This document shows, piece by piece, positions 1,263 to 32,744 of a stretch of DNA of 34,953 nucleotides. Each line of letters begins with the position of its first letter. The stretch's first letter is position 1. The notes below the pieces were generated by a model. The model worked only from the letters and a program-made list of their open reading frames with translations, made no database searches and was not told the origin of the DNA. A program made the translations under genes and the position numbers. The stretch comes from Syntrophaceae bacterium (GTDB lineage Bacteria > Desulfobacterota > Syntrophia > Syntrophales > UBA2185), in the NCBI GenBank assembly GCA_003153775.1, contig PMBI01000094.1, positions 1 through 34,953 on the forward strand. Direction: 5' to 3'.

Positions 1263-1291
1263 CGGGTTCGATTCCCGCCGCCTCCACCAAT
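1263..1291 (+). repeat. att-like direct repeat, left copy (tmRNA/tRNA 3' end)
   Basis: These 29 bp recur identically at 7113-7141. They read as a T-loop (GGTTCGATTCC), then CGCCTCC as the 3' acceptor strand, the discriminator A and CCA. CGCCTCC would pair with a GGGGGCG-type 5' end typical of tmRNA; a tRNA ending GCCTCCACCA is the alternative. No 5' part of such a gene lies upstream (an ORF is there instead), so this is a fragment left by site-specific integration rather than a functional RNA gene. The leftward integrase gene ends 14 bp to its right. Confidence 0.85.
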
Positions 1292-1304
1292 TTATTTAGT
1301 AATA

Positions 1305-2399
1305 TCAGCGACTTGTAATTTTATTTTTGACCTCTAAATGACCTCTAAAGTCCACTATATTTGCCCTTCGGTCTATCAGCATCTGGGTGATGCTTTCGTT
1401 TGATCTTTTTGCATACCTTTTAGTCATCTCTGGGTTCGTGTGACCCAACACTTTTTGAACTTTATCAAATTCAAATCCCCTATCGAGCAATTGACAACCC
1501 AATGAATGCCTGACAGCATTGTAAAGTTTAACCTTCCTGATACCCGCACTTGCACAGGCTTTAGACCAAACCTCGTTCAGATTTTTGTCTGTATATGGCT
1601 TGCCATCCTCTCTCGTAAAAACAAAGGTATTAGCGGTCATCGTCATCGACTTCAATATCTGTTTTACATAAGGCGTCAACCCATAGACCCTTTTCTTGTT
1701 GGTTTTTGTACTTTCCATTAATTGATTCTCTGCAAAGGCACGCCTTATGATAACTTCATCATCCGTTACACAGTCCCACTGAATTGCTCTCAGTTCCCCG
1801 ATCCTGAAGCCATACTCCATGCCGACCATGAATATCGGTCTATGTCTTTCTGGTATATTTGAAAGCACAATTTCCTGCTGTTCCAGTGTTAAATATTCTA
1901 TCTCTGGAAGTTCTCCCTTGCTGATCTTGGGGAACGGCGGCACTCTTGGAATATCTTCATTCCTCCAAGCCCATCTCATCATAGTCCGCAGACAAGAAAC
2001 GACGTTATACTTACCCTTCTCGCATCTCGGAATCCATTTGTGAAATTCCATGATGTCGTTATAACGGATATTACGCAGATCCTTGGTAGCGAAAAATGGA
2101 ATGATGAACCGCCGTACAGAATAGGAGTAGTCCTTAAGTGTATTAGGTTTTACATCTATAACCTGAAGCCATTGTTTTGAGTATTCGCTTAATGAAAGAG
2201 GATTATCAGGAAAATATGATCTAGGCTGGAAAGTTCCCTCGTCGATTTCCGCTCTGATCTTGCTAAGAAGTTTTTCAGCAGTTTTTTTATGCCATATCGG
2301 GTCACCATTGTACTTCCAAATCTTGTAACGTTTTCCTTCCCAATAAATCTGAATGTACCAACGCCCCGCCGGCGCGTGGTGAATAATTGACCCACCCAT
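1305..2399 (-). CDS. int: Tyrosine recombinase / phage-type integrase
   Basis: Catalyses site-specific integration and excision of the surrounding element. The order is an AP2-like arm-binding N-terminus (about residues 1-60), a SAM-like core-binding domain (about 65-160) and the catalytic domain. With the start at 2399 the catalytic residues are R199 (in GFRIGELRAIQW), a lysine near 232-235, R297 in the NAVRHS box, H320 in VLGHT and nucleophile Y329 in KRYAK. The first His of box II (usually HxLRH) is Asn here. I chose ATG 2399 because AAAGGGGGTGA stands 4-14 bases ahead of it; a TTG at 2456 would add 19 residues. The 3' end abuts the left att repeat, and rep lies just upstream on the same strand. 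Confidence 0.93.
   Translation of the reverse strand: MGGSIIHHAPAGRWYIQIYWEGKRYKIWKYNGDPIWHKKTAEKLLSKIRAEIDEGTFQPRSYFPDNPLSLSEYSKQWLQVIDVKPNTLKDYSYSVRRFIIPFFATKDLRNIRYNDIMEFHKWIPRCEKGKYNVVSCLRTMMRWAWRNEDIPRVPPFPKISKGELPEIEYLTLEQQEIVLSNIPERHRPIFMVGMEYGFRIGELRAIQWDCVTDDEVIIRRAFAENQLMESTKTNKKRVYGLTPYVKQILKSMTMTANTFVFTREDGKPYTDKNLNEVWSKACASAGIRKVKLYNAVRHSLGCQLLDRGFEFDKVQKVLGHTNPEMTKRYAKRSNESITQMLIDRRANIVDFRGHLEVKNKITSR
1328..1348. promoter_or_regulatory. Putative integrase arm-type site, left end
   Basis: Two adjacent copies of a TGACCTCTAAA-type unit lie 37 bp inside the left att repeat. The same 21 bp occur in the same orientation at 7046-7066, 46 bp inside the right att repeat, and I saw no other copy. 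Tyrosine integrases of the lambda type bind paired arm sites near the attachment core, so this is the likely role. The left copy is inside the last codons of the integrase gene, so it doubles as coding sequence. Confidence 0.6.
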
Positions 2400-2469
2400 A
2401 TAGTCACCCCCTTTGTAATTTGAAAGAGGGTTATCATGTTGTATTGGTAAATTCAATTTTAATCCCTAC

Positions 2470-2496
2470 AAAAATTGTCCCGGATTTCTTGATCCG
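2470..2496 (-). terminator. Possible weak terminator after rep
   Basis: Directly after the rep stop codon on the minus strand, CGGAT and ATCCG form a 5-bp stem around a 6-base loop, followed a few bases later by TTTTT. The stem is short and the T-run is offset, so termination may be partial and int may still be co-transcribed with rep. Confidence 0.4.
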
Positions 2497-3666
2497 CTAA
2501 AAAGGTACACCTTCAACAAATGTTCCCGACCGAATATATTCCAACATCACCAAGACTGTTTGCCGCTCTATCAATACAAAAAATTGAGTGAATTCATGAG
2601 ACAAACAGAAATTGAGTCCGTATTTAACCTTTTTATTTATCCCTTTACAAAAGTTCCTCAGCATCCTTTTCAACAGCACCATTTCATTATTTTCTACTTC
2701 GATCTCTTCTGGATTCTCTTCTATCGGATCACCTATCAACCCCCAACTCCGACCGATGCTTTCATCCGTGACAAAGTCTTCATTCTTGCTGATATATTTT
2801 TGCATGTACTTTCGCATCTGTTTTTGGGATTTAATGAAACGGAAACTATTTTTATGGTACAGCACATGGCGAGCTTTCATCTCGTATTCACCCTGTGTCC
2901 CCGTGATCTGAAGCCACTTGTCAACGATCCTAAAATACGTCTCAAGATATTTTCTATCGTCAACAGTTCCAATCCAAACCACGATATGAAAATGAGGTAC
3001 GTCTTCCCCCTCTAATTTTCCCGATTTCCTTTTTTTCCATTCTCTTTTCCATGCACCATTAGCCTCAATGCCCTCCCGTTCCATCCATCTTTTTAATTGG
3101 TGCAGGTCTTCAGAAGACTTTAATTTCCGTTGTTCTTGCGTAAGCTCTACCACCACGTCATCGGCGTAAGTGAGGTCAAACCAGAATTCAGGTCTGTGCT
3201 TCATCATCCCGAGATGCTTCATCATGTTCAACCTCGACCTTTTAGAAAATGTCGTTATCTTCTTTTTCTTTCCGCCGACCCGATTTATTTTGAAATCACC
3301 ATCTACAATGGACTTCTTAATCTTACGAACGAGACAGAGACCAGAATAAACCCTCAACAATTCATTTTGGCGAGCATCATCTCCGAGTTCTTGATCAAGG
3401 ACGGTATAATTACCACCAGACGTCTTTGCAAAATATACTGATCTTGCGATCCTATCCCGGAACTTCTGTTTTCTCTGGCTCCTGTTTTTATCGACTAACT
3501 TCTCAAGCAGATTCCAATAATAATCTAATCTGTCACCACTGGAATGCTTCTGCTCTTTTATGTCACTTATACAAGCATCGGGGGCTTCCGCCCGCCCTCC
3601 CGGGCTCACGTCGATGCCCGGGGAGGGCAGGCACGGCAGCGCCCCTTGACCTTTCTTAACTTCCAT
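2497..3666 (-). CDS. HUH-endonuclease replication initiator (rolling-circle type)
   Basis: Likely nicks a double-strand origin and starts rolling-circle replication of the excised element. Three family landmarks appear in order: motif 1-like FWFDLTYADD (about 161-170); the HUH metal-binding motif PHFHIVVW with H225 and H227; and catalytic YxxK motifs in YMQKYISK (Y287-K290 and Y291-K294). Length (389 aa) suits single-protein Rep relatives. The first 35 residues are Pro/Gly-rich and encoded by unusually GC-rich DNA with a long inverted repeat, so they may overlie an origin rather than form a domain. ATG 3666 has AGGAGG eight bases upstream, within a hairpin. The gene sits between a ribbon-helix-helix gene and int, all leftward. 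Confidence 0.85.
   Translation of the reverse strand: MEVKKGQGALPCLPSPGIDVSPGGRAEAPDACISDIKEQKHSSGDRLDYYWNLLEKLVDKNRSQRKQKFRDRIARSVYFAKTSGGNYTVLDQELGDDARQNELLRVYSGLCLVRKIKKSIVDGDFKINRVGGKKKKITTFSKRSRLNMMKHLGMMKHRPEFWFDLTYADDVVVELTQEQRKLKSSEDLHQLKRWMEREGIEANGAWKREWKKRKSGKLEGEDVPHFHIVVWIGTVDDRKYLETYFRIVDKWLQITGTQGEYEMKARHVLYHKNSFRFIKSQKQMRKYMQKYISKNEDFVTDESIGRSWGLIGDPIEENPEEIEVENNEMVLLKRMLRNFCKGINKKVKYGLNFCLSHEFTQFFVLIERQTVLVMLEYIRSGTFVEGVPF
3594..3628. repeat. GC-rich inverted repeat in the 5' end of rep; candidate replication origin
   Basis: GCCCTCCCGGGC (3594-3605) pairs with GCCCGGGGAGGGC (3616-3628) across the 10-base spacer TCACGTCGAT, with one extra G. It is by far the most GC-rich stretch in an AT-rich element and sits at the start of the HUH Rep gene, where such proteins often have their nick site. 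The assignment as an origin is inference. Confidence 0.55.
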
Positions 3667-3700
3667 AAAAAATGCCTCCTCTGAAACTTCCAGAAGAGGC
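3667..3700 (-). promoter_or_regulatory. Leader hairpin that contains the rep Shine-Dalgarno and ends in a T-run
   Basis: On the minus strand GCCTCTTCT (3692-3700) pairs with AGAGGAGGC (3674-3682, one mismatch) around a 9-base loop, followed at once by ATTTTTT and the rep ATG. The 3' arm holds AGGAGG, the rep ribosome-binding site. The structure therefore resembles an intrinsic terminator and also a Shine-Dalgarno sequester, suggesting rep is held down by attenuation or occlusion. Confidence 0.6.
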
Positions 3701-3839
3701 TTCTTGCAAAGACATCAATCTGATGTTAGATTTGACAACAGATCACTTCCTGTGCATGATGCCCGCAAAGCTAAGTGCTCATCTGGAAGATGATTTAGAA
3801 AGTCCAGTCATGTTCGCGCATGATCTGGGCTTTCGTTCT

Positions 3840-4106
3840 TTAGGCTACAATCCCCTTAACTGAATTTGTTTTCCTCCACTTTTTTGCCGTTTTATCCAGC
3901 ATCCTACCTGCGTCACGTAAAAGAACGCCCAACTGAAATATCCCTACTTTGTTTGTGAATTCACAGTAGGACACCAAGATTTCAACCATGTTACAAACGA
4001 GCTTCGACCTCGGGATATCTCCCTTCTCGGCAATCTTATCTAATCGTTCGACAAGCTCCTTGCTACAATGAAATGTTACCTTCTGTGCTTTACTATCATC
4101 AGTCAT
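3840..4106 (-). CDS. Ribbon-helix-helix (CopG/MetJ-type) small DNA-binding protein
   Basis: The 88-aa protein begins with a basic strand followed by two helices: KVTFHCSKELVERLDKIAEKGDIPRSKLVCNMVEI (about residues 9-43, strand-helix-turn-helix). That is the ribbon-helix-helix fold of CopG-type repressors and mobilisation accessory proteins. The rest (about 45-88) is helical and basic at the end. AGGGA lies 5-6 bases before ATG 4106. It lies upstream of rep on the same strand with about 170 bases between them, which contain the rep leader hairpin, so a role in copy control or as a relaxosome-type partner of Rep is plausible but inferred. Confidence 0.75.
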   Translation of the reverse strand: MTDDSKAQKVTFHCSKELVERLDKIAEKGDIPRSKLVCNMVEILVSYCEFTNKVGIFQLGVLLRDAGRMLDKTAKKWRKTNSVKGIVA

Positions 4107-4421
4107 CGTCGTCCCTCACTTTCTTCAGATAGACTAAAATATAATTAAATAGCTGTAGGCGTCTGATAGCCATATAGTATATCTTGTACACCATTGTCAA
4201 GACATTTCTTTACTGCTTTCCGTCTCTTCTTTTTCGGGGGGGTAATATAGGAAATTGTACCGAGAGGCGTTCTTGATGCTATATTCTAACAGTCAATGTG
4301 CCATTCAGGTTCTCGCAGAAATTAACGGCTTCCGTGAAGGCTATCGTGTACGTTGCGTTGATATCGCGATAAAGTTTTATACACGATACCTCAACTTACG
4401 AGGCAGACATAGAGCCTTAAC
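4107..4421. other. Intergenic region upstream of the RHH gene
   Basis: 315 AT-rich bases between the HicAB-linked operon and the RHH-rep-int group, both leftward. On the minus strand TTGACA (4195-4200) is followed by TATACT-like sequence, but the spacing (13 bases) is short for sigma-70, so no promoter is assigned firmly. A 62-codon rightward ORF (4255-4443) has no similarity I recognise and is taken as chance. Confidence 0.4.
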
Positions 4422-4844
4422 TTATGCTTTTATAAGAACTTGATGATTAATCACGTATACTGGGTCACCATAAGGATCGATGGTCTTCGTCCTATTAACA
4501 CTGCTGATTGCTGGTTTAATTTTTAAAATGGTTCCATCTTCGAGCTTATACGAATTCCAATCCTCGCGTATGATTTCATAGGGAATATCTTTTTCAGCAA
4601 CCTTAAGCTCAATCATAAGAGATTTTGACGGACTCGCCTTCAACTTCTTTGGCACAAATACTCCGGCAGCATTGCCCGCATTTACTGCGTAACCTTTAAT
4701 CCCGCCATCCGATACAGGAATAAGCTTTACTAAGATCAATCTAAACTTCAGCACACTTCCATCTTTAAGGGAGTAAATGTTCCATGGTTCACTTATGGCT
4801 TCAAAATCTGTATATCCCTTCATAATGCGATTTCCTACTTTCAT
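4422..4844 (-). CDS. Hypothetical protein with an internal duplication, third gene of the HicAB operon
   Basis: I do not recognise a named family. The 140-aa protein contains two copies of one motif: residues 14-37 (FEAISEPWNIYSLKDGSVLK...) and 89-112 (YEIIREDWNSYKLEDGTILK...), sharing the pattern E-x-I-x-E-x-WN-x-Y-x-L-x-DG-x-x-LK. The spacer (about 40-85) is Gly/Val/Lys-rich. This suggests two small beta-rich repeats. GGAG lies 7 bases before ATG 4844; a second ATG 21 bases in (residue 8) is also possible. It starts 14 bases after the HicB stop, so it is very probably co-transcribed with the toxin-antitoxin pair. No signal peptide or membrane segment. Confidence 0.75.
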   Translation of the reverse strand: MKVGNRIMKGYTDFEAISEPWNIYSLKDGSVLKFRLILVKLIPVSDGGIKGYAVNAGNAAGVFVPKKLKASPSKSLMIELKVAEKDIPYEIIREDWNSYKLEDGTILKIKPAISSVNRTKTIDPYGDPVYVINHQVLIKA

Positions 4845-4858
4845 ACCTCATCTCCATT

Positions 4859-5401
4859 CTAATTTTTTGCATAGCTGTACATAGGATTCTTAGTATTAGC
4901 TCCAATATCGCGAGTCACAGCGACTTCAGGAGCACTTACTTGCCCCGATGTCACTGCAACAGAGGGCGAAGCATTTAGGACAAGTTTTACTTGATTAAGC
5001 TTCTTATCAATACACTTTTCGATCCTTTCAAGCATGAGGTCTTGCTCTAAGTGTTTCTCCAAGGCATTTCGTATAAATTGGTTTAAGCTCTGTCCCTCCT
5101 CACGTGCGCGTAAAGCCATTTTCCTATGTAACTTGGGCGAAATCCGTAAAAGAAATTTTCCACTAAACTCTTCCTCGCTAACCGGTTCTGGTATATCTAG
5201 ATGTCTCTCCAAGCTAACTTCGAACCAACCAACCTTCGCGTCCTCAAGTTTTTCCAAAGCCTCCTCTATCGTATCACCATGTGCACTACAACCCGGCAAA
5301 TCAGTTATCTCAGCAATGTATCTAAGTCTCCCATCATATTCTTCAAACTGATCAATAGTAATTGGATAATACAACCCCATGTAATATTTTATGTCTTTCA
5401 C
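4859..5401 (-). CDS. hicB: HicB-family antitoxin with C-terminal RHH domain
   Basis: Neutralises the HicA toxin encoded just upstream and probably represses the operon. Residues about 5-70 form the partial RNase H-like HicB fold, with the diagnostic YIAEITDLPGCSAHGDTIEEALEKLEDA. Residues about 80-120 (SGKFLLRISPKLHRKMALRAREEGQSLNQFIRNALEKHL in part) are a ribbon-helix-helix DNA-binding domain, as in the HicB subgroup that autoregulates. The last 60 residues look disordered and are not conserved in the family as I know it. It follows hicA with a 9-base gap, the usual toxin-first order. Confidence 0.9.
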   Translation of the reverse strand: MKDIKYYMGLYYPITIDQFEEYDGRLRYIAEITDLPGCSAHGDTIEEALEKLEDAKVGWFEVSLERHLDIPEPVSEEEFSGKFLLRISPKLHRKMALRAREEGQSLNQFIRNALEKHLEQDLMLERIEKCIDKKLNQVKLVLNASPSVAVTSGQVSAPEVAVTRDIGANTKNPMYSYAKN

Positions 5402-5410
5402 TTTTTTCTC

Positions 5411-5731
5411 CTATTGAAATTCTCCGAGCCTTGTTAACGCTCTTATGGCTTTTTTCCTATCCTCCTTCGAAACAAATTTTTCTCTTCCGTGAGGCTCGTC
5501 CGCGGTAAACCGTTCATCCTCTCTTACGAAAACCCTGCTAGACCCTCTCTTATTAATCATATCAAACCCGTAGCATTTCGTCAGAACATCGACAAAAGCC
5601 TTCCAAGGCATGCGAACAGACCAGTCCCTGAAACTATCCCTATGAGAATATAATTCTTTCTTAGACAATGTGATACCACCCTTAGTATCAATATTCAAGA
5701 ATTCTTTAGAGTACAAGGGCAGCTTTGTCAA
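5411..5731 (-). CDS. hicA: HicA-like toxin (putative mRNA interferase)
   Basis: HicA toxins are small dsRNA-binding-fold proteins that cleave or block mRNA. Here WKAFVDVLTKCYGF (about 43-56), then RGSSRVF, EPHG and a final helix DRKKAIRALTRLG fit the longer HicA type with a GSR..F..PHG pattern, and the gene stands directly before hicB. The usual catalytic His after GS is absent (GSSR), though the EPHG His is kept. The open frame begins with TTG at 5731 and lacks a good ribosome-binding site; the next Met is residue 41, which would remove only sequence upstream of the HicA core. So the true start is uncertain and activity is unproven. Confidence 0.7.
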   Translation of the reverse strand: MTKLPLYSKEFLNIDTKGGITLSKKELYSHRDSFRDWSVRMPWKAFVDVLTKCYGFDMINKRGSSRVFVREDERFTADEPHGREKFVSKEDRKKAIRALTRLGEFQ

Positions 5732-5752
5732 GCCTTATTTATCCAGATAATT

Positions 5753-5787
5753 GCAATATCCGCTAACTCACTCTATCGGATATTTGC
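5753..5787. promoter_or_regulatory. Inverted repeat upstream of hicA, candidate operator
   Basis: GCAATATCCG (5753-5762) and CGGATATTTGC (5777-5787) form an inverted repeat with one extra T, 22 bases upstream of the TTG start of hicA. A related GCGGATAT lies at about 5836-5843. HicB proteins with an RHH domain bind such repeats. On the plus strand the repeat is followed by ATTTTTTC, so a terminator-like role cannot be excluded, but no rightward gene ends there. The rest of the 5732-6076 gap holds only the tRNA-like fragment at 5916 and, presumably, the promoters of the divergent genes. Confidence 0.45.
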
Positions 5788-5915
5788 ATTTTTTCTTGAG
5801 TATATGGTGTCTACTCGACAAATCATACGTCGCATAGCGGATATAGTAAAATTCAGTAAACAATCGGTAAGCTAACTTTATGCATAATAATATTAATCAT
5901 TTACACCATAGTATC

Positions 5916-5943
5916 CTAGGTTCAAATCCTCCCACCTTGGCTA
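5916..5943 (+). other. tRNA 3'-end-like fragment
   Basis: The stretch includes GGTTCAAATCC, which matches a T-loop and half of its stem, then CTCCCACCTTGGCTA, where an acceptor strand and a CCA-like end would be. Only three T-stem pairs form and no other tRNA arm is present upstream. It may be an old attachment-site scar inside the element, or chance. Confidence 0.3.
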
Positions 5944-6076
5944 AGCTCTATATATTCATGTTTCTATCGTATCCCATCCTAGAAACAAGAAAATTCTGTC
6001 ACCAGAACTAATAAATTGACTTTGTAGATAAATGTTGTCTATTATTTCTTATCCACGATAACGAAATATAAGAAAA

Positions 6077-6646
6077 ATGTTCAGTGACCCCCAACAAATT
6101 GAAGATACCGTATCATTGATCCTTAGAGTTATCAGTAAGCCATTCTGGCAGAAATTAGAGTTCTGGATTACTATCGTTATCGCAGTTACTGGGGTTATTT
6201 TTTCTATTTTGGCTTTTGCCGAGGCTAGAAAGGCCAAACGGGCTGCGACAGAAGCCGGAAGAACAGTAAAAATCCAGACTATAACAATAGAACTAACTGA
6301 GGTCTCTCAGAAGCTTGACAAACTCAGACCAAATATCCCCTTCAATGAGGCACGTGATATGTTAACAGAGATTTCCCGAAGGCTTCGCCGCATCATTTCT
6401 CCTTTTCAAGCAGACCCAGACTTAAAATGTCATATAGACACCCTGCGAGAAGTTTTAACAGGTGCAAAAGAATCCCTCAATTCTGTTCGTCCGACTGATC
6501 CAGCAAATGAGGAAACGCCTTATACAGTCTATTACGCTATAGAGTCAGATTTCGCATCCATTAATGATTGTGTCGCAGACCTACTCGGTCTGTTCGAAAA
6601 GAAAACCATAAATATCGGAGATGACAATGTCGCACCAAAAGGATGA
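6077..6646 (+). CDS. Hypothetical one-TM membrane-anchored protein
   Basis: Not a family I can name. The 189-aa protein has a single hydrophobic segment at about 29-49 (FWITIVIAVTGVIFSILAF), followed by a basic juxtamembrane stretch (RKAKRAATEAGR, about 51-62), which predicts the N-terminus outside and a cytosolic helical domain. Residues 65-189 are helical and charged (TIELTEVSQKLDKL, RDMLTEISRRLRRII). It is transcribed rightward, opposite to the rest of the element, and its last 20 bases overlap the next gene. The arrangement resembles two-gene accessory or defence cargo placed next to an att site, but function is unknown. Confidence 0.75.
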   Translation: MFSDPQQIEDTVSLILRVISKPFWQKLEFWITIVIAVTGVIFSILAFAEARKAKRAATEAGRTVKIQTITIELTEVSQKLDKLRPNIPFNEARDMLTEISRRLRRIISPFQADPDLKCHIDTLREVLTGAKESLNSVRPTDPANEETPYTVYYAIESDFASINDCVADLLGLFEKKTINIGDDNVAPKG

Positions 6647-7001
6647 GCTTATAATATACATAAATAAAATTACTGAATCCACACGCCTTGGTGAGATGTT
6701 ATGGACAAGAATCAATCCCACCACTTATACGTGGTCAACAGATAAACCGAAGCCAGCCAAAATCATTCTTCAACAAGTGCAAAGAAGCACAAGGCGTATA
6801 ATAGGGGGCAATATCATTGTCAGAACTAGTACACACTACTTATTCAAGGTGATCGACCAACACGGGCAAGAGGTGATCGCAGTAGACGGGTCTGAGGATG
6901 AATCAATTAACACGAGTCTTTCGCCACTCTATGAAGCAATATTATCAGGTTTTACGCAAAAAGGTATAGAGTTTCTGAAAACCATTCTGCCCGACCACTA
7001 G
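6627..7001 (+). CDS. Hypothetical small soluble protein, partner of the one-TM protein
   Basis: 124 aa, no signal peptide or membrane segment. It reads DELIIYINKITESTRLGEMLWTRI at the N-terminus, then a beta-rich middle (TYTWSTDKP..., YLFKVIDQHGQEVIAV) and a C-terminal helix (SPLYEAILSGFTQKGIEFLKTIL). This layout, a helix then strands with LW..I and Y.F.V.D..G, recurs in many small uncharacterised bacterial proteins, but I cannot give a family name. I chose ATG 6627 because GGAG ends six bases ahead of it; an ATG at 6621 follows GGAG with no spacing. The 20-base overlap with the upstream gene implies coupled translation. It is the last gene before the right att repeat. Confidence 0.75.
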   Translation: MSHQKDELIIYINKITESTRLGEMLWTRINPTTYTWSTDKPKPAKIILQQVQRSTRRIIGGNIIVRTSTHYLFKVIDQHGQEVIAVDGSEDESINTSLSPLYEAILSGFTQKGIEFLKTILPDH

Positions 7002-7045
7002 AAATTAACGATAAGAGTCGATATCGAATACCAATGTAAAAAATA

Positions 7046-7066
7046 TGACCTCTAAATGACCTCTAA
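7046..7066. promoter_or_regulatory. Putative integrase arm-type site, right end
   Basis: Same 21 bp as 1328-1348, in the same orientation: two adjacent TGACCTCTAAA-type units 46 bp inside the right att repeat. This copy is non-coding, between the last cargo gene and the att core. Confidence 0.6.
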
Positions 7067-7112
7067 CCATATTTTATATGGAAAATTAACAATAAGTTAG
7101 AGCATGAAGAAT

Positions 7113-7141
7113 CGGGTTCGATTCCCGCCGCCTCCACCAAT
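7113..7141 (+). repeat. att-like direct repeat, right copy
   Basis: Identical to 1263-1291 over 29 bp, again ending in a T-arm, CGCCTCC and ACCA. Its left flank (AGCATGAAGAAT) has no tRNA-like structure, so this is an attachment core only. It closes the element carrying int and rep. Its right flank, starting TATTGAAAAGTA, recurs after the next copy at 8031. Confidence 0.85.
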
Positions 7142-8030: not shown

Positions 8031-8135
8031 ATCGGGCTCGATTCCCGCCGCCGCCATTATTGAAAAGTAGTGCAGATTTTACAGACGCTATTTTATCGAC
8101 TGCGCTTCTTGTCAAGAATAAAGCTCTGACCCCCA
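8031..8135 (+). repeat. Third att-like core plus right flank (degenerate duplicate of 7111-7220)
   Basis: CGGGCTCGATTCCCGCCGC (core with one change at the T-loop) is followed by CGCCATTATTGAAAAGTAG and, after some divergence, TTTTATCGACTGCG, TTCTTGTCAA and ATAAAGCTCTGACCCC. The CCA end is altered (GCCGCCATT). Together with 7111-7220 it flanks the response regulator and the four-cysteine ORF as direct repeats. Its right half is also the 3' end of the leftward gene 8093-8959. Confidence 0.75.
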
Positions 8136-9001: not shown

Positions 9002-9105
9002 TAGGTACAGCGCCCATTTATTGGAGCTAACCATCGAAGCGATTCCAGCCGTCTCCACCATTATTGACGAGTTGCAGATGGTCTTGTTAAGAATAAAAAT
9101 TTACC
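9002..9105 (+). repeat. Composite repeat: GACAGCGCCC-family copy A fused to a fourth, decayed att-like core
   Basis: TAGGTACAGCGCCCATTTATT (9002 on) starts like the dispersed repeat found at 9824, 10809 and 14257. It runs into ATCGAAGCGATTCC, then AGCCGTCTCCACCATTATTGA, which matches the att core end and flank of the copies at 7113 and 8033. Further on, GTTAAGAATAAA still resembles the flank. This gap (8960-9166) holds nothing else I can identify. Confidence 0.55.
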
Positions 9106-24175: not shown

Positions 24176-24271
24176 GGTCTTTATTCATCCTTTGGAAAAA
24201 GAGCGGGCAAATTGCGGTCACTGATCGTTACTGTTTGTTTTGTTGCTATTGCAGCGGAGAGTTCAATTTGG

Positions 24272-25402
24272 TCATGGCGCTTGGATGTAGGACTGCACGG
24301 TAACGTGTGCTCTTTCTATTTCTTTAACCAGGCGGGGTGTTACATTCTCCTCAAGGTCAGGCCGCATCTTGAACATTTCATAGTATTCACTTCTGATGGG
24401 CAGTTTTTCTTGATCATTGGCGCCGTAGCCCAATGTCTTACAGATCAGGTCAGAGAGACAGATTACAAACGTCTGTTTTATGTAGGGCTCGGGGATGGAT
24501 TCGGGAGGGAAGAATGAGGGGTGGTGATGGTACTCGATGCCTTTTACGATGCTCTCGGATAGTTGCCAGTTCTTAGCAATCATGCCTCCCAAACATGCGT
24601 GGTTTATTCCGTACTTTTGCTCCTCCCGTATCAGGAGGGGCGATTCGGCCGATTCTTCTCCCACCGGTTTCAGCATGTCGATAAAATACTTGCCTATGTC
24701 ATGGAGAAGTCCCATCGTGCCCATTTCATATTCGGAGAATTGAAATATGTTCTTGCCGAGATGCCCCGAGCAAACCGAAACCACGGCGGAGTGGGCCCAT
24801 GTCTTGCTGTATACGTCAGCACGCCCCGGGGGCATTACGTTATTAAGCGTCTCCTGTAGAACCAGCGCCCTGACGCTGTTATATCCGAGAAGGCTTATTG
24901 CCCTTCCTACAGACGTGATCTTCTCCGGACGGTTAAAATATGCGGAGTTCACCGCCCGCAGTATCCTCGCGGAAAAAACGGGATTTGTTACTGTAACCGA
25001 TGTAATCTCTCCCGGGTTCGACTCCGGGTTCCGCAACAGGTTCATCAGTTTTAAATAATTTACAGGTATCGGCTTGATGGTGGAGATTTTCTGTTCAACG
25101 GCTTCTCTGACTTCCGGACTCATATCCTCTATTGATTTTGGCGAAACGCCCTCAGCTATAGGGAAATAGGAGACTTCCGTGAGCACCGGGTAGGATTCGA
25201 GGAAGGCTTTTCTTTGGGATTCCGCGCTCGGAGTCGCGGCATGAGACGACGACGCCGGCGATTTTTCTTTATGACGTTTTCCCGTATCGCGCACAGGCTG
25301 CGAATGCTGCGATGGTTTCCGGCGGGATTTTTTTCTCTGCGATGATATATAAAATAGAGTCAGAGCCAGGGCAGCAAGAATTAGGCTCAAGAAGATGTTC
25401 AT
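24272..25402 (-). CDS. Membrane-anchored HDOD-domain signalling protein
   Basis: 376 aa from ATG 25402, with GGAGAGG about 5-8 bases upstream. An N-terminal membrane helix (MNIFLSLILAALALTLFYIS) is followed by a basic, Ser-rich linker (about 22-65) and then the HDOD domain (about 85-290): INPIPVNYLKLMNLLRNPESN-like start, NPVFSARILRAVNSAYFNRP, GRAISLLGYNSVRALVL and LLHDIGKYF, where the H-D pair is kept, plus EYHHHPS. HDOD proteins act in signal transduction, often linked to cyclic di-GMP or stress, usually without known enzymatic activity. It faces a non-coding gap on its upstream side. Confidence 0.88.
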   Translation of the reverse strand: MNIFLSLILAALALTLFYISSQRKKSRRKPSQHSQPVRDTGKRHKEKSPASSSHAATPSAESQRKAFLESYPVLTEVSYFPIAEGVSPKSIEDMSPEVREAVEQKISTIKPIPVNYLKLMNLLRNPESNPGEITSVTVTNPVFSARILRAVNSAYFNRPEKITSVGRAISLLGYNSVRALVLQETLNNVMPPGRADVYSKTWAHSAVVSVCSGHLGKNIFQFSEYEMGTMGLLHDIGKYFIDMLKPVGEESAESPLLIREEQKYGINHACLGGMIAKNWQLSESIVKGIEYHHHPSFFPPESIPEPYIKQTFVICLSDLICKTLGYGANDQEKLPIRSEYYEMFKMRPDLEENVTPRLVKEIERAHVTVQSYIQAP

Positions 25403-25636
25403 TTTAACCTCTCCTCTATACCTGTACACATGAGAAAACAGTTAAGGTTGATATATTTCTTTTCTGTCCAAATATGACGCTGAAGCTTGATCCCCAGGCA
25501 TTTATCTCACAAAAACATGAAAAATTGCAATCTTTAAATGCAGTTGGGCAAACTGCCGCGATCGCACATCTCAGGACATGGTTCTGCCGTTTGTCTTTAC
25601 GGATTAACAGAAAAACGGCAAGTGCCGGAGGTAAAT

Positions 25637-25726
25637 ATGAATCGGCGGAGAATTTTGACCGCGAGGATCGATGTATATCTGAGAACGGAAAATCTTAGAG
25701 GGAAGATAGCGAGCCGTTCCATTTGA
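25637..25726 (+). CDS. Tiny ORF, 29 aa, with a perfect ribosome-binding site
   Basis: MNRRRILTARIDVYLRTENL then RGKIASRSI. GGAGG precedes ATG 25637 at five bases. The RRR....RI.V.LRTE start recalls the opening of a PilZ domain, so it may be a decayed PilZ gene; nothing more is encoded after the stop. GAGCCGTT (25711-25718) and AACGGCTC (25733-25740) form an inverted repeat over its 3' end but without a T-run. The remaining 25403-25786 gap contains nothing else I can support. Confidence 0.35.
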   Translation: MNRRRILTARIDVYLRTENLRGKIASRSI

Positions 25727-25786
25727 AGATGAAACGGCTCAAGAGTGTACGCAACGATAGTCCAGTGTCTAAATGCTTGGCGGGCT

Positions 25787-26572
25787 TTACTGCCCCTTGA
25801 AGCTGGGTTCTCTCTTTCCTATAAAAGCGGAGATTCCTTCTTTCGCGTCCGCTGTCTTGCTGACCCAGATCATCCCCCGGCGCTCCAATTCGAGCTGCCG
25901 CTCTAACAGTCCGAAGAAGGCGTTATTGAAGTTCTCCTTTACGATAGAGTAAGACACCATCGGGCCTGAGGCAAGCTTGAGGGCAATATCCATCGTGGTC
26001 TTTTCAAGCTCATTGTCGTCGACCACCTTATTGACGAGCCCCATCTGGAGGGCATCCTTAGCATCGAATACAGGGTCCAAGTACACCAACTCTGACGCCT
26101 TGCCGAATCCGATCAGCAGCGGAACCATAAGGGTCCATGCCCCGTCGGGAATCATGCCGATAGAAGTGTAAGCCTGCCTGAACTTTACAGATGAAGCGCA
26201 AATTCTCAGGTCACATGCGGCGGCAATGCTCACTCCCGCACCGGCAGCCGTCCCGTTGATCATGGCAATGACAGGCTTTGAAGTACGGCGGATGCCGACG
26301 ATCGTAAAATGTAAGAACTTCGTCAGTTGCCGGATTTTCTCGCTTACATCGGGGGAGCTGTTAAAGAGCGCCACGTCTCCTCCCGCGCAGAAAGCCTTGC
26401 CCTCTCCCGTGAGCACAATTACTTTTACATCCCTGTCGTCTGCGCAGATTTCGAGGGCTTTGATGATATCGCTGAATAATTCAACATTGACAGCATTAAA
26501 CGATTTGGGACGGTTGAATCTGATGACAGCTACCTGATTGGCCTTTTGGAAAATAATATTGTCGAACTGCAT
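25787..26572 (-). CDS. Enoyl-CoA hydratase/isomerase (crotonase) family, PaaG-like
   Basis: 261 aa, normal length. The oxyanion-hole segments are KAFCAGGDVALF (59-70) and NGTAAGAGVSIAAACDLRI (106-124). In the catalytic region FRQAYTSIGMIPDGAWT (131-147), Tyr135 occupies the place of the first hydratase Glu (Glu144 in rat), while E161 (KASELVYL) fits the second and D143 in the IPD motif fits the Asp of PaaG-type isomerases. So isomerase or another crotonase reaction is more likely than plain hydration. GAGGAGG precedes ATG 26572. It lies 79 bases downstream of marR with its own operator-promoter, so is probably under MarR control, with acyl-CoA thioesters as effector or substrate. Confidence 0.9.
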   Translation of the reverse strand: MQFDNIIFQKANQVAVIRFNRPKSFNAVNVELFSDIIKALEICADDRDVKVIVLTGEGKAFCAGGDVALFNSSPDVSEKIRQLTKFLHFTIVGIRRTSKPVIAMINGTAAGAGVSIAAACDLRICASSVKFRQAYTSIGMIPDGAWTLMVPLLIGFGKASELVYLDPVFDAKDALQMGLVNKVVDDNELEKTTMDIALKLASGPMVSYSIVKENFNNAFFGLLERQLELERRGMIWVSKTADAKEGISAFIGKREPSFKGQ

Positions 26573-26615
26573 GTGCTTCCTCCTCGTTGGTTATTTAGAT
26601 ATTCAATCCCGCTTG

Positions 26616-26644
26616 TTAATAGTTTGACATCAAACTCTATTGCA
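26616..26644 (-). promoter_or_regulatory. Promoter with MarR operator upstream of the crotonase gene
   Basis: On the minus strand GTTTGATGTCAAAC (26622-26635, palindrome with one change) ends directly at a -10-like TATTAA (26616-26621). The -35 (TGCAAT, 17 bases away) is weak. The same operator touches the -10 of marR in exactly the same position, which supports shared control. Confidence 0.7.
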
Positions 26645-26651
26645 GAAAAAA

Positions 26652-27074
26652 TTAGAGGTTCGCGTTGATCTTGTTGAGCAGATTAACCAACGTTTCCCTT
26701 TCGTCGTCCGAGACCCCCTTGTATGAATGAGCCCGCAATTTCTGAGCGATGAGAAGAAAGCTGGGCTTCAAGGCCATTCCCTTGCGAGTCAAGGCGATGA
26801 GGCTGATGCGACTGTCGGCGGGATCACTCTTCTTTTCCACATAACCTATTCTGATCAACTTGTTCACCAGAGCTGTGATAGTGGATTTGTCTTTGGCGAT
26901 GATCCTACCGATTCCGGACATGGGCAAAGGCCCGCGCGCCATCAAATATCCCAGGATTTCGCCGTGGGAAGGGGCTAGTCCTTTAATACCATGGGCCTTC
27001 ATTTCCTGGGAAAGAAACCGATTCGCCTTGTACTGGATGCGCCCGATCAGGAAAATGATGTGATCCTTTTTCAT
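26652..27074 (-). CDS. MarR-family transcriptional regulator
   Basis: 140 aa from ATG 27074, the standard MarR length; a longer frame to 27158 would start before the promoter and is rejected. The winged-helix core is visible: APSHGEILGYLMARGPLPMSGIGRIIAKDKSTITALVNKLIRIGYVEKKSDPADSRISLIALTRKG, in which DKSTITALVNKL is the recognition helix and DPADSR the wing. Flanking helices (MKKDHIIFLIGRIQYKANRF and SDDERETLVNLLNKI) make the dimer. The operator lies within its own promoter and recurs upstream of the crotonase gene, so it should be an autoregulated repressor of an acyl-CoA-related pathway. Very short or absent leader. Confidence 0.9.
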   Translation of the reverse strand: MKKDHIIFLIGRIQYKANRFLSQEMKAHGIKGLAPSHGEILGYLMARGPLPMSGIGRIIAKDKSTITALVNKLIRIGYVEKKSDPADSRISLIALTRKGMALKPSFLLIAQKLRAHSYKGVSDDERETLVNLLNKINANL

Positions 27075-27080
27075 GGAGAC

Positions 27081-27109
27081 AACATAGTTTGATATCAAAC
27101 CATTGTCAA
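27081..27109 (-). promoter_or_regulatory. marR promoter with palindromic operator in the spacer
   Basis: On the minus strand TTGACA (27104-27109), a 17-base spacer and TATGTT (27081-27086) form a good sigma-70 promoter. The perfect palindrome GTTTGATATCAAAC (27087-27100) fills the -10-proximal spacer. The start codon is only six bases after the -10, so the transcript should begin at or near the ATG. Confidence 0.8.
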
Positions 27110-27382
27110 GATAATTTATGCGGGAATGTGTTATGTACAAACGTAGTAGCGAAGACAATATTGGATGAACGGGGGATGCGGGAATGGAGTGATAATCTTC
27201 TGGAGGAGATCATTAGATTCACTCTTATGCAAGGCCCTGATGCATTTGGATTTTAAGGGCCTTGCTTCGGGAAGACGTGTTTCCGGAGTTGAGGATAGTC
27301 TACGATCAGAAATCGGGCGGTCCTCGCTCCGGCATGTTGACGCGCGGCGACGGACTGTTTACGATCCGTCGAAGAGGCGCGC

Positions 27383-28729
27383 CTAACGCATGCCGTGGGA
27401 CCGGCGCGATTTCATTTGGGGCGAACCGGCGGGAAACGGGAACTGGGAAAGATCCTTCCGTCCCCTCCTCGCGCCGGAAGTGGGCCGCGAAGCCGGCATG
27501 GAAGAGCGGTCATTCCGTTCCGACGTATCTCTGACAACTCTTGTTGAGCCCGGTCTCTTCCTTGAGGTCGGGAAGTGGCCGGATCCCTTGCTGGTGACCG
27601 GCGCCGGAATGGTGTAATCGAAATTCGGCAATATTCGTCTTTCGAGCTTTTCACCGAGAACATTTTCGATGGTCCACACAAAAGCCCTGTCCGGGCGCGT
27701 CACAAAGGTGAAGGCATCGCCTGTTCTGGTAGCCCGGCCGGTGCGCCCGATGCGGTGCGTGTAGGCATCAACCGTATCCGGCATGTCATAATTGATCACA
27801 TGCGATATCTTGGAAACATCTATGCCGCGGGCGGCAATGTCGGTGGCCACGAGTACCTGGTACTTGCCGTTGCGAAAACCATCGAGCGCCTCCTGGCGTT
27901 TGTTCTGGGGCAGATCGCCCTGCAGCGATGTCACAAGAAACCCGGACCTTTTCATTTGTCTCGCGAGGCGAGTAGCGCGGTCCTTGGTGCGCGTAAAGAC
28001 CAGCACGGAAGCGGTATCTGTGCTGTCCAGAATCTTCATCAAGAGCGGGGCCTTGAGGTGCGGATCGACAGGATAAATTGCATGGGAGACGGTAGATATC
28101 GGAGCCGCATCGCCAACCTGAACCGCGACGGGATTGCGGAGCACGCTCTCTGCCAGGTTCCGGACATCATCCGGCATGGTCGCCGAGAAAAGAAGAGTCT
28201 GCCGCTCCACGGGAAGACGCTTCAAGATATTCTGGACATCCGGGAGAAATCCCATGTCGAACATTCTATCCGCCTCGTCGAGGACCAGCACTTCAATGCG
28301 TTTTAAATCGACAATGCCCTTATCCATAAGATCGATCAGACGTCCGGGGCAGGCCACAACAATATCCGCTCCGCTCTGGAGCTTCCTGATCTGGAGATTC
28401 TGGTTCACGCCGCCATAGATTGTGACGCTCTTCAGTTTCGTATAGCGGCCGAGGTGACCGATGGCCTCATGCGTCTGCTCCGCCAGTTCTCTCGTCGGGG
28501 CAATTATTAGAGCCCGGATACGCTTCCGCGGCCCGTCGATCAGACGCTGCAGAATGGGAAGAACGAAGGCGGCGGTTTTCCCCGTTCCGGTCTGTGCCTG
28601 TGCCATTACGTCCTTGTTCTGAAGAATGGGAGGTATAGCTTGTATTTGAATCGGCGTGGGCTCCGTATATCCGATAGCCCTGACACCTGATTCGATGTGG
28701 GGGTGTAGATTAAACGACTCAAAATTCAT
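27383..28729 (-). CDS. rhlE: DEAD-box ATP-dependent RNA helicase, RhlE-type
   Basis: 448 aa from ATG 28729, with AAAGGAAC about seven bases upstream; the frame continues to 28867 without a ribosome-binding site. Helicase motifs appear in order: Q motif GYTEPTPIQIQAIP, motif I AQTGTGKTAAF, Ia PTRELAEQ, GG and TPGR-like CPGRLID, II DEADRMFDMGF, III SATMP, then LVFTRTKDRA, TDIAARGID and VI HRIGRTGRA. The C-terminal 60-70 residues are a basic, Ser/Arg-rich tail (RKRPGSTRVV, GARRGRKDLS), as in RhlE relatives. Role: remodelling RNA, in ribosome assembly or cold response. Its leader carries a strong terminator-like hairpin about 290 bases upstream. Confidence 0.93.
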   Translation of the reverse strand: MNFESFNLHPHIESGVRAIGYTEPTPIQIQAIPPILQNKDVMAQAQTGTGKTAAFVLPILQRLIDGPRKRIRALIIAPTRELAEQTHEAIGHLGRYTKLKSVTIYGGVNQNLQIRKLQSGADIVVACPGRLIDLMDKGIVDLKRIEVLVLDEADRMFDMGFLPDVQNILKRLPVERQTLLFSATMPDDVRNLAESVLRNPVAVQVGDAAPISTVSHAIYPVDPHLKAPLLMKILDSTDTASVLVFTRTKDRATRLARQMKRSGFLVTSLQGDLPQNKRQEALDGFRNGKYQVLVATDIAARGIDVSKISHVINYDMPDTVDAYTHRIGRTGRATRTGDAFTFVTRPDRAFVWTIENVLGEKLERRILPNFDYTIPAPVTSKGSGHFPTSRKRPGSTRVVRDTSERNDRSSMPASRPTSGARRGRKDLSQFPFPAGSPQMKSRRSHGMR

Positions 28730-29019
28730 TATTGTTCCTTTTTTCTCTGTATTACCAAGTTCAACCTTGGGACGGATGATTGATTGCTGCTGCTCAATTG
28801 TTCGAGGTCTCCCTGGGCTGTTCGAATATGTGGGATCCGTCGGACGCCGTCGTCTTATTCTGTTCACCCTGCCTCCTTGCCATTTTTTTGCTTCGCGTTT
28901 TGTATGCGCACGAGTTTCTCTTACGCTTATTAAACCCGTTTTGACTTTGCTTCCTTATGTTCCGCCTGTCTTCGACAGGAATCGCTCATACATCTTATTA
29001 AGCAAAATTTCTTTACGTT

Positions 29020-29058
29020 AAAAAAAATCCCCAAAAAGCCTTCGTCAGGCCCTGGGGA
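29020..29058 (-). terminator. Intrinsic terminator or attenuator in the rhlE leader
   Basis: On the minus strand TCCCCA pairs with TGGGGA, with GCC/GGC inside and an internal loop, followed by eight T. It is a strong intrinsic terminator. The nearest gene that could end here (PilZ, 29766) is about 700 bases upstream and the rhlE start is 290 bases downstream, so it may be a leader attenuator. A smaller hairpin CCTGTC-TTC-GACAGG is at 28965-28979. Confidence 0.65.
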
Positions 29059-29765
29059 CATGAACCAAAACCATCTTGTTAAGGAATATAAGCTTTTTTC
29101 CAGCCAATGTCAAGGATTAATGGCGTTACACTTTCGTGTTTGATCGAAACTCTGCTCTCTTAGGGATAATCCGACGACCAATGAATATTAAGGTTTTTGG
29201 CGACACGAGAGAATCCGGTTCTTCTTATATGAACTATGTCAGGAGCATGTTATTTTTTTTGCCGCCTGACTCTCACGATTTTAAAATTCAGGTTGCATAG
29301 ACACACCGAACCTCTCACCCGGTCCGGGGTAAACCTGTGTCAACATATCAGGGAATTAAAGATCCGCACCAAGCTGCAGAGAGTCTTTGGCTCTTAAGGA
29401 ACAGTATCGCTCGGCATTCGTTCGCTGCAGAATTCAATAAAATGGCCATTCAGGTACCTGTATACCCCCCTGCCCATAATCAATTGAATATTTTAAAGCA
29501 TAATATTGTTAGACGGTTATGGTTATTTAGGGCCTCTTGGCGGTCGAGAGCGTCATCATCGCCTGCGGATTTATGCTTGTTCTGAACTCATATAGCGATC
29601 TTGATAATAGATAGAAATCTTCCCCCGATTATGTGACGGCAATTTACCGGGGTTGACGGGGCGGGTTTCAAGATATGGAAGTATATGCGGCTTCCGTCTT
29701 CATATGTGATTTAAGAACGGGACAGCATAGTGAACATATCCGGACGATTTGGCAGGATACGCCCT
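29059..29765. other. Non-coding gap between the PilZ gene and the terminator
   Basis: About 700 bases. The two open frames (29337-29585 and 29675-29863, plus strand) have no ribosome-binding site, no domain and odd composition, so they are not annotated. No tRNA, repeat or convincing structured RNA was found in it by eye. Confidence 0.45.
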
Positions 29766-30272
29766 TCAGGGTTTTCTCAGGTAGAAGCCGAGCTCTGAAT
29801 CTATGTAGCCAGGGAGTTCACAAAATTTACAGCCGACGGAACGCTCTTCTACTTCAGAGATGACGGCTTTTTTTCTGATAATGGAACTCCGCGGATTGTC
29901 CAACGTAAATTGGATATTTATTTCTTCGCCTACTGCCAAAGGGTCTTTCCTGATCATCTCAAACCTGCACCCCACCATGGATAGATTTATTACGATCATT
30001 TTCCCCCAATGACCCTCAGGAGTGGTTCTGTAATATAATCCTTCGAGTTCTGTATCTTTTCTGAAGAACTTTCTGAACTCAAGTTTCACTTCAGAGTCAT
30101 ATCCGCACACACAACTCATTCTCACTGAGCCTATATGGTCTCTGTATTTTATCACGGATTGCTTCCGCGAATCGCCGCACTTGGGGCAGAGGAAGGTCAC
30201 CATGCCGGTTTCGTCGACATACAGTATTTTGATGCTATCGTTTGACACGCTCTCTCCTGCATCCGTTTTCAT
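29766..30272 (-). CDS. Zinc-ribbon plus PilZ-domain protein (putative c-di-GMP receptor)
   Basis: 168 aa. Residues 25-60 hold two Cys pairs, CPKC (29-32) and CVC (54-56), with a GD and GYD after them, like a zinc ribbon. Then PilZ: basic RKFFRK (67-72) gives the RxxxR half, and INLSMVG (95-101) gives the (D/N)xSxxG half; VGEEINIQFTLDN and RSVGCKFCEL are typical strands. Both motif halves are present, so c-di-GMP binding is likely. The partner is unknown; the diguanylate cyclase gene starts 160 bases downstream in map terms, on the same strand. ATG 30272; the ribosome-binding site is weak. Confidence 0.8.
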   Translation of the reverse strand: MKTDAGESVSNDSIKILYVDETGMVTFLCPKCGDSRKQSVIKYRDHIGSVRMSCVCGYDSEVKLEFRKFFRKDTELEGLYYRTTPEGHWGKMIVINLSMVGCRFEMIRKDPLAVGEEINIQFTLDNPRSSIIRKKAVISEVEERSVGCKFCELPGYIDSELGFYLRKP

Positions 30273-30431
30273 TGTGATCTTTTAATACGCAGTTTCCGCT
30301 AATACAATACTAGAAAAATACTGTTAATATACCAGTATAAAACTACCATTTCATAGAAATAGTCTATCCTTGACCGGTTCCTCTTCCTCTTTTCAAATTG
30401 GCGTATCCTTTTCGCCGCCAATGAGGGTCTC

Positions 30432-31286
30432 TTACTGGGAGTCCGTTAAGCTGTCAAAGTCAACGACTCTGTTGCGTCCCTGCTGCTTCGCCCCATAGAG
30501 GGCCTTGTCGGCGCGATTGATGAGGGACAGATTGTCAACAGTCTCCTTATCCAATCCTGAAACGCCAATGCTGACAGTTATGGTTATCGCCTGCCTCTTT
30601 TCGTATTCGTTGGCCGGGACCATGATTGATTTTTCAACGGATCGGCGCAGTCGCTCTGCCAACTCGAGCGCGCTGGCGACAGAGGTGTGTGGCGCCAGGA
30701 CGGCAATCTCTTCACCCCCGTAACGGGCGACGATATCCGTATCTCGAACCTCCCTGAAAAGGAGCTGGCCCAGGCTCATCAAGACACGGTCTCCAATCTG
30801 ATGTCCGTAATTGTCATTGACGATTTTGAAGTGGTCAATGTCAAGCAGCAACAGCGAGAGCTGCATGTCATATCTGCGAGCCCTGGAAATCTCTTCATCC
30901 GTTCTCCTGTCCAGATACCGGCGGTTGTGGATGCCGATCAGATGGTCAGTGATGCTTTCATACTGAAGGGCAGACATCTGCTTTATTTCGATAGCAGTCT
31001 GCAGGGCAAGTGTGCCGACAAAGAGTATTAAAACTGCGCCGAGGAAGAATACCGCCGGCACAATGAGATTGAAGGCGTTATTGTATTCCATCCAATAAAG
31101 GAAAGTGAAACATACATACCCCATAATGAAAAAGAGGATCAGCGCCCTTAAGTCATTCCATCTTTTTCTCAGCGCCCCCTCGGGCAGTTGCCCTACGAGA
31201 CGCTGTATGGGGAAGAATGAAATGCAAAGGAGACATGCTCCCAGCAATAGGACCCCATTTATGATATAAATAGTTACACCTTGCAT
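30432..31286 (-). CDS. Membrane-bound diguanylate cyclase (GGDEF)
   Basis: Makes cyclic di-GMP from two GTP. Three or so N-terminal membrane helices (about 4-24, 47-66, 73-95) anchor a GGDEF domain (about 118-278): LTDHLIGIHNRR-like start, DIDHFKIVNDNYGHQIGD, and the active loop GGEEI (190-194) preceded by the inhibitory-site R-D-T-D (181-184), five residues upstream. All catalytic features are intact, so it is expected to be active and product-inhibited. No sensor domain beyond the membrane part. It is on the same strand as the PilZ protein 160 bases away and is probably its source of signal. Confidence 0.92.
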   Translation of the reverse strand: MQGVTIYIINGVLLLGACLLCISFFPIQRLVGQLPEGALRKRWNDLRALILFFIMGYVCFTFLYWMEYNNAFNLIVPAVFFLGAVLILFVGTLALQTAIEIKQMSALQYESITDHLIGIHNRRYLDRRTDEEISRARRYDMQLSLLLLDIDHFKIVNDNYGHQIGDRVLMSLGQLLFREVRDTDIVARYGGEEIAVLAPHTSVASALELAERLRRSVEKSIMVPANEYEKRQAITITVSIGVSGLDKETVDNLSLINRADKALYGAKQQGRNRVVDFDSLTDSQ

Positions 31287-31392
31287 ATAGATTTTCTCAA
31301 TGACTCCGGTTCTTCAGTAAGAGCATAACGAGAGCCGATGATACAGCCGTAGAGAGGCCTGGTGTCTCAAATACCATGTGAAACATGAAGAT

Positions 31393-31434
31393 ATGCAACG
31401 ACGTATCGACTTCCTGTCGAAGCGTAAGTTGCAT
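31393..31434. repeat. Long imperfect hairpin in the 31287-31865 gap
   Basis: ATGCAAC (31393-31399) pairs with GTTGCAT (31428-31434), and TCGAC (31406-31410) with GTCGA (31416-31420) around TTCCT; the middle is less regular. No T-run follows. It lies between divergent genes (GGDEF leftward, PEBP rightward), so it may be an operator or structured leader. A 63-codon frame at 31533-31724 in the same gap is not supported. Confidence 0.4.
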
Positions 31435-31865
31435 TCCCTTAATTAGTTGCCATCCTTTATCATATTATCGGTTATCTGCCCAGCTAACTTTATGACTAAT
31501 CTAAAGTTTTTTAATTTTGCAGCCGAGGCGCCGTGATGCCTGCAAAAATTTTTGCCGGGTCTCGGCTCAAGAAGGCGAAATGGCGACTTCCGCTCGTCCT
31601 CTCTTTACGCATACGTGGTGATTATATCTCTTTTTCGCACTTGATTCGGGATGGAAATATTGATATACGAAAATATCTCGCCTCATCCCTGAAAAAGCAT
31701 CTTCTCCCGTTCGCCGGCAGTTAGATGCAGTAGTCATAATTCGTTGTCAAGGGAAAAGCCGCTGCAGCAAGAAGGCAGGTGCCAACATGACGATAATCGC
31801 TCCGGGTTGTTTCAACATATATTCTGAACAGCAATATAATAACTATGAAGGCAGGTAAGTGACAG

Positions 31866-32432: not shown

Positions 32433-32512
32433 AGATCGGAACAGAGTAGAAGCAGGTTTCGAAGAATTGAAGCCTTACAGATTGTAGTTAATTTTACTAA
32501 GGGGGTGCGGTT

Positions 32513-32656: not shown

Positions 32657-32744
32657 TCCTCAATATTACGGAATTGCGACTGCCTGCTTCACAGGGGGTC
32701 GGTTATACCTGTGTCGTTTTTTCACTTAGAAGGAGAACAGTCAT

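Follow-up and report, generated by a model that had tools for sequence, protein, structure and literature searches.

A 5.85-kb integrative element with a predicted rolling-circle initiator between tmRNA-end repeats in a Syntrophaceae bacterium, a probable member of a small family of defence islands

The window, which is the whole 34,953-nucleotide stretch of DNA analysed, contains a 5.85-kb element with one att copy at each end (Table 1). The two repeats are perfect over 29 bp. Its integrase (Int) matched Phage_integrase at 2e-23 and also has arm-binding and SAM-like domains; the int gene ends 14 bp from att copy 1. No relatives of this integrase were found in IMG/VR. The cargo consists of HicB, a weak HicA and three proteins of 140, 189 and 126 aa, and no recognised defence system was found in it. 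The three proteins had no relatives in the collections searched. Profile searches with Pfam and PHROG detected no relaxase, coat or structural gene in the element, and among its proteins no Tra gene (FtsK-like), AlpA, primase or Zot/pI ATPase, with the reservation that small coat proteins are easily overlooked by such searches. Neither a packaging site nor an oriT nor an excisionase was identified in the element. The preliminary description had proposed an integrase, an HUH Rep, a ribbon-helix-helix (RHH) protein and HicAB, and had excluded relaxase, coat and structural genes. The exclusion was borne out by the profile searches, and Int, Rep, RHH and HicB are present; the HicA half of the pair is weak and lies below the cut-off.

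Table 1. Features of the window and of the related elements (L, locus; G, genome).
Feature	Position	Strand	Remarks
End of neighbouring array unit, cut by contig start	1..1262	.	ORF 35-1075 (+)
att copy 1 (int side)	1263..1291	+	first 28 bp = 3' end of tmRNA gene
Tyrosine integrase, 364 aa from ATG	1305..2399	-	Pfam Phage_integrase, Phage_int_SAM_3, Arm-DNA-bind_2; PHROG integrase
Arm-type repeat	1328..1348	+	TGACCTCTAAATGACCTCTAA, two tandem 11-bp units; presumed integrase arm site
HUH Rep (predicted), 389 aa	2497..3666	-	HFH motif, Y286-x3-Y290
Candidate double-strand origin	3559..3575	-	CTTGTATAAGTGACATA, inside rep
RHH-rep leader	3664..3842	-	covarying hairpin
RHH (CopG-type) protein, 88 aa	3840..4106	-	Pfam RHH_1 5.6e-6; candidate rep regulator
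140-aa protein	4422..4844	-	PHROG 21681 (unknown function) 8e-5
HicB antitoxin-like protein	4859..5401	-	Pfam HicB 5.6e-15
Probable HicA toxin partner, weak	5411..5731	-	Pfam HicA_toxin E 0.031, below cut-off; adjoins hicB
189-aa cargo protein	6077..6646	+	hydrophobic N-terminal stretch (read from sequence)
126-aa cargo protein	6621..7001	+	overlaps the 189-aa protein's gene
Arm-type repeat, cargo-side copy	7046..7066	+	TGACCTCTAAATGACCTCTAA
att copy 2 (cargo side)	7113..7141	+	
Degenerate att copy	8033..8061	+	
Degenerate att copy	9040..9060	+	
Ancestral right flank of tmRNA gene	24269..34953	.	adjoins tmRNA directly in G003
Relative L018 (G411)	repeats 8854/14099		tmRNA
Relative L021 (G478)	repeats 5798/12432		tmRNA
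Relative L020 (G433)	repeats 7321/12022		tRNA-SeC
Relative L019 (G533)	repeats 8666/13818		tRNA-SeC fragment
Truncated relative L095 (G494)			tRNA-SeC, int, tail of rep at contig end

The complete tmRNA gene of the same genome lies on another contig (G000:C80:10-363, minus strand), and its last bases are identical to bp 1-28 of the repeat. This contig stops 9 bases beyond the tmRNA. The search for the att 27-mer, with up to three mismatches permitted, found three places in the whole genome, namely both repeats of the window and the tmRNA end. ARAGORN detected neither a tRNA nor a tmRNA in the window, and the Rfam scan of the window gave no match at the gathering threshold. Since the tmRNA is complete elsewhere in the genome and absent from the window, the att copies of the window are integration scars rather than the gene itself. 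In a species of the same genus (G003), the tmRNA almost directly abuts sequence that is 83-85% identical to positions 24,269-34,953 of the window. This empty site indicates that positions 1-24,268 are an island array that separates the tmRNA gene from its ancestral neighbour. The element is thus a single unit within a tandem array, which explains why the window has no full tmRNA. It had been claimed that perfect tmRNA-end repeats bound the element and that an empty-site homologue should exist, and both claims were verified. The placement directly at the tmRNA gene needed correction: the repeats do match the tmRNA end, but the element is not beside the gene, and the array had been missed. That contig C80 joins contig C4 is deduced from synteny. 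The idea that the perfect repeats are a mere dispersed repeat was rejected, as the core matches the tmRNA and the empty site shows where it came from. The 66-nt stretch that follows att copy 2 is dispersed within the genus.

The array comprises, in order, the unit at the contig start, an att, the element, an att, a short unit, an att (8033), a short unit, an att (9040) and more island genes. The G+C content is 0.35-0.44 across the first 9 kb of the window versus about 0.45-0.59 further on. G002 shares the att and the right flank (98% over 86 bp) and has another left neighbour. A copy of the right end of the element occurs elsewhere in the genome of G003, from which it follows that related elements circulate in the genus. 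Could the element itself be dead, a formerly mobile DNA that is now a fossil unit of the tmRNA array? The degenerate att copies and short remnants of the array agree with such a fate, as does G005, where integrase scraps alone are retained near the tmRNA. However, the element has perfect att repeats, two intact arm sites, open int, rep and RHH genes and an intact origin motif, so that a dead remnant is very improbable.

Rep was searched for in 155 genomes from the class and 395 from the phylum. Six Rep carriers were found in the class, the genome of the window included, together with one more distant Rep. Four complete relatives of the element and a truncated fifth have the same gene order and are located at tmRNA or tRNA-Sec. 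In the complete relatives, int is at one end, rep is directly upstream of int, and an RHH-like gene is upstream of rep (the Pfam match to RHH is weak in L019 and L020 and absent in L018, where the gene was assigned by position and by eye). The protein in this position in L021 is 53% identical to the RHH protein of the window. The conserved rep-int neighbour order, on which the mobile-element interpretation had been staked, is thus present in the related elements. A near-empty tRNA-Sec site was found in G441, which belongs to the genus of the L020 host. The int end faces the RNA gene in L018 and L021, and the cargo end does so in L020. Between the window and L021, the integrases are 77% identical and the Reps 37%. 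Between L018 and L019, the Reps are 51% identical and the integrases 24%. The histories of int and rep disagree, which shows an exchange of modules.

Near each end of the element there is one copy of an arm-like 21-bp repeat. The window has four copies of the 10-bp half of this repeat, where 0.04 would be expected. All complete members have flanking direct repeats and, at about 65-100 bp from the outer att edge at either end, paired short repeats with a spacing of about 11 bp. L021 carries the same arm sequence as the window at the same distance. The repeat sequence tracks the integrase type, being TGACCTCTAAA in the window and L021 and TTTTGGTGCA in L018; among the tRNA-Sec members, it is TTTGGTTCAGT in L020 and GTTCTTAC-like in L019. 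The paired repeats are read as putative arm sites of the integrase, which has an Arm-DNA-bind domain.

All six Reps matched PF23343 (REP_ORF2-G2P), with a best value of 3.5e-12; the Rep of the window gave about 8.7e-6 to 8.8e-6, just under the Pfam cut-off. Residues H224, H226, Y286 and Y290 are invariant across the six, and the two invariant tyrosines correspond to the phiX174/P2-like layout. The AlphaFold2 model of Rep has a mean pLDDT of 60, and most of residues 150-280 are above 75. Viral replication proteins were matched by the model in BFVD with a top E of 4.9e-11. Foldseek of the model against the PDB gave no E below 0.001; in a second look at the PDB (VIA), HUH enzymes ranked first (3wrn, Z 8.2, rmsd 3.9, 150 aligned). 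No sequence relatives of Rep were found in the PDB, no match in PHROG, no helicase domain in the protein, and no relatives in the phage, plasmid (PLSDB) and IMG/VR collections at the sensitivity used. By its motifs and fold, Rep is classified as a two-tyrosine (superfamily I) HUH endonuclease and is a predicted nickase, at modest model confidence. The HUH fold of the preliminary description is upheld by the invariant motifs and by the HUH enzymes matched by the model.

Two other explanations of the element were weighed. The element may be derived from, or parasitic on, a filamentous (inovirus-like) phage, in which case an inovirus helper would package and export the single-stranded circles made by Rep. 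PF23343 is named after ORF2/G2P, the initiator type of filamentous phages, 5-7 kb is the size of an inovirus, and the Pf filamentous prophages use both kinds of target, tmRNA and tRNA-Sec (PMC7549136). Against this explanation, which we regard as unlikely, searches of the element of the window detected neither a Zot/pI-type gene nor a coat gene, Rep lacks a PHROG match, the tyrosine layout is that of phiX174/P2, and the structure matches are spread over several viral groups. The element may otherwise be an integrated plasmid-like mobilisable element whose Rep doubles as relaxase, with the circle transferred by the conjugation apparatus that another element provides, like a Tra-less pSAM2-type AICE or a MobT-type IME. 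The pSAM2-type AICEs combine Int with a two-tyrosine-related rolling-circle Rep (PMC3218068), the MOBT relaxases are related to such Reps (PMC11389934), and one Rep of the family matched Pfam RepSA weakly (0.029). The absence of a detected Tra or relaxase gene and of an identified oriT, and the dissimilarity of Rep to the plasmid Reps in PLSDB, make this explanation a rather unlikely one.

In phiX174, the replication origin lies within gene A, and the nick is at CTTG. A comparable motif, CTTGTATAAGTGACATA, is located in the N-terminal part of rep, which apart from this motif is not conserved. Its DNA is 97% identical across four members, whereas the 60 nt before it are 27% and the 60 nt after it 35% identical. 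Given the encoded peptides and the codon use of each gene, the chance of the codon agreement at the motif is about 1e-9 in a post hoc calculation. Three reps share a 19-mer; none of 300 synonymous shuffles reached this length (maximum 17). In L019, one inserted base puts CTTGTA in another reading frame with the nucleotides kept. Therefore, it is the DNA and not the protein that is conserved at the motif. The class-wide search with at most one mismatch found the four family reps and two other places, and its reversed control gave one match. The two other places, in G470 and G531, are stretches without a family rep (tblastn); they were set aside as probably chance, because the reversed pattern also gave a match. 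We consider CTTGTATAAGTGACATA a strong candidate for the replication origin, as in phiX174 gene A. The resemblance includes a YxxxY Rep, a candidate origin inside the initiator gene and CTTG at the presumed nick. Unlike in phiX174, the bases after CTTG are different, the protein similarity is remote, and the element has no capsid genes. The leader upstream of rep can form a hairpin with some compensatory changes among four sequences, which is weak evidence.

The cargo of the relatives points to defence. Type II restriction-modification with Vsr is found in three of the four complete relatives and PD-T4-9 in one, so that known defence genes are present in all four. In L018, genes for Vsr, HNH and a C5-methyltransferase are present, and the ORFs of L019 point to the same set. 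L021 carries a Vsr-like ORF and a fused methyltransferase-BsuBI/PstI enzyme, and L020 carries the PD-T4-9 A and C genes with a small gene between them. From their position, the 140-, 189- and 126-aa proteins of the window are candidate defence genes.

We propose the following mechanism. The tyrosine integrase would bind the paired 11-bp arm repeats and recombine the core at the tmRNA end. Insertion would restore the tmRNA end, and excision would yield a 5.85-kb circle. The two-tyrosine HUH Rep would nick this circle within the rep gene, at CTTG/TATAAGTGACATA, and drive rolling-circle replication with the helicase and polymerase of the host. Expression of rep may be kept down by the RHH protein, whose gene is immediately upstream, and perhaps also by the hairpin in the leader. 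HicAB and the remaining cargo may give stability or phage defence, because the relatives carry restriction-modification and PD-T4-9. In the least certain step, the replicated DNA would be packaged in a helper phage. As the element has no transfer genes, this is its most likely way of spreading. The PICMIs are 6-kb islands with excision and replication genes only, which replicate by rolling circle and spread in phage particles without packaging genes of their own (PMC10803314). I55 lies at tmRNA, carries restriction-modification and can be transferred by a jumbo phage (PMC12595487). In view of these precedents, transfer by a helper phage is our favoured guess; its rivals are packaging by an inovirus and mobilisation by conjugation. 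Replication on excision, as proposed earlier, is a prediction well supported by the anatomy, namely the HUH Rep, the RHH-type gene upstream and the candidate origin. The element may also be the satellite or minimal mobilisable island that the preliminary description suggested.

Taken as a whole, the element is probably an integrative rolling-circle defence island, a member of a small family and probably dependent on a helper for its transfer. Small integrative islands and rolling-circle replicons are already known kinds. Within the libraries and papers searched, which are a part of all literature, nothing was found that unites Int, RHH and exchangeable defence cargo with a two-tyrosine HUH Rep whose candidate origin lies in its gene. 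The chances are about even that the members form an undescribed phage-satellite or transfer-less family. Its core would be Int, the HUH Rep with its in-gene origin and RHH, with integrases swapped between tmRNA and tRNA-Sec and interchangeable anti-phage cargo. If such a family exists, the three proteins of the window would be candidates for new defence genes; with known defence systems in the cargo slot of 4/4 complete relatives, these uncharacterised proteins are worth testing. The family also provides a testable origin sequence. If this is true, a mobile defence island needs just one integrase, one nickase carrying its origin and one regulator.

Several known systems resemble the element in part. 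The PICMIs of Vibrionaceae (PMC10803314) are about 6 kb, with an integrase, a replication gene and few others, and have no packaging genes. They carry defence cargo, and their rolling-circle replication has been reported, while here it is predicted from the genes. Unlike the PICMIs, which have AlpA and a primase beside int at fis, the element has the HUH Rep and RHH, and the family is located at tmRNA or tRNA-Sec, the site being tmRNA in the window. The Pseudomonas tmRNA islands, I55 and kin, are also located at tmRNA with flanking tmRNA-end repeats, a tyrosine integrase, type II restriction-modification and other defence cargo, and no autonomous transfer genes; they differ in having AlpA and a much larger size, and no HUH Rep is mentioned in the part of the source available (PMC12595487). 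The pSAM2-type AICEs of Actinobacteria share a tyrosine integrase, tRNA targets and a rolling-circle initiator related to phiX174 gpA, but they carry an FtsK-like Tra gene (PMC3218068), none of which was detected in the element. The Pf prophages of Pseudomonas aeruginosa are likewise small, with a tyrosine integrase, targets that include tmRNA and tRNA-Sec, and replication of the rolling-circle type; unlike the element, in which none was detected, they have coat and assembly genes (PMC7549136). Finally, the Dehalococcoides ssrA islands are arranged in tandem at ssrA with direct repeats of its end and are thought to be mobilised by others (PMC3146451). They are without genes for independent replication, whereas the element has its own Rep.

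A 66-nt sequence follows two of the att copies in the window, and the same sequence is also present in two relatives of the genus (G003, contig C45; G002, contig C222). The 66-nt sequence is a dispersed repeat of the genus. In its outer part, the tmRNA island that holds the element encodes a caspase-like protein of large size, which matches the caspase model of PADLOC at 4.2e-9.

Within rep, a very G+C-rich inverted repeat lies immediately upstream of the candidate origin. The relatives lack it, and it is perhaps an inserted palindromic repeat.

In the source genome, the contig bearing the tmRNA (C80) stops 9 bases beyond the gene. A break at an att site such as this could mean that the element was excised in some copies and integrated in others, or that the assembly contains repeats.

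Coordinates of the features
Feature	Location	Position
66-nt repeat	window	7156-7221; 8072-8137
Caspase-like gene	window	10946-12649
Inverted repeat in rep	window	3590-3632
Contig end beyond tmRNA	G000:C80	1-9
Right-end homologue	L094 (G003:C271)	12205-12237
Integrase remnants	L048 (G005)	~7689-7784; 10876-10959
Distant Rep	L022 (G309)	9202-10837

In G003, a homologue of the right end of the element, including the arm repeat, directly adjoins part of the att core; this junction lies elsewhere than at the tmRNA, close to a TA-like gene pair. In G005, two remnants of the C-terminus of an integrase of the L018 type (L018 being the complete family relative at the tmRNA of G411) both have the tmRNA upstream, and are scars of past insertions. 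A distant Rep is encoded at a contig end in G309, a host from another family of the same phylum, in the order RHH-like gene, Rep and HTH-type gene.
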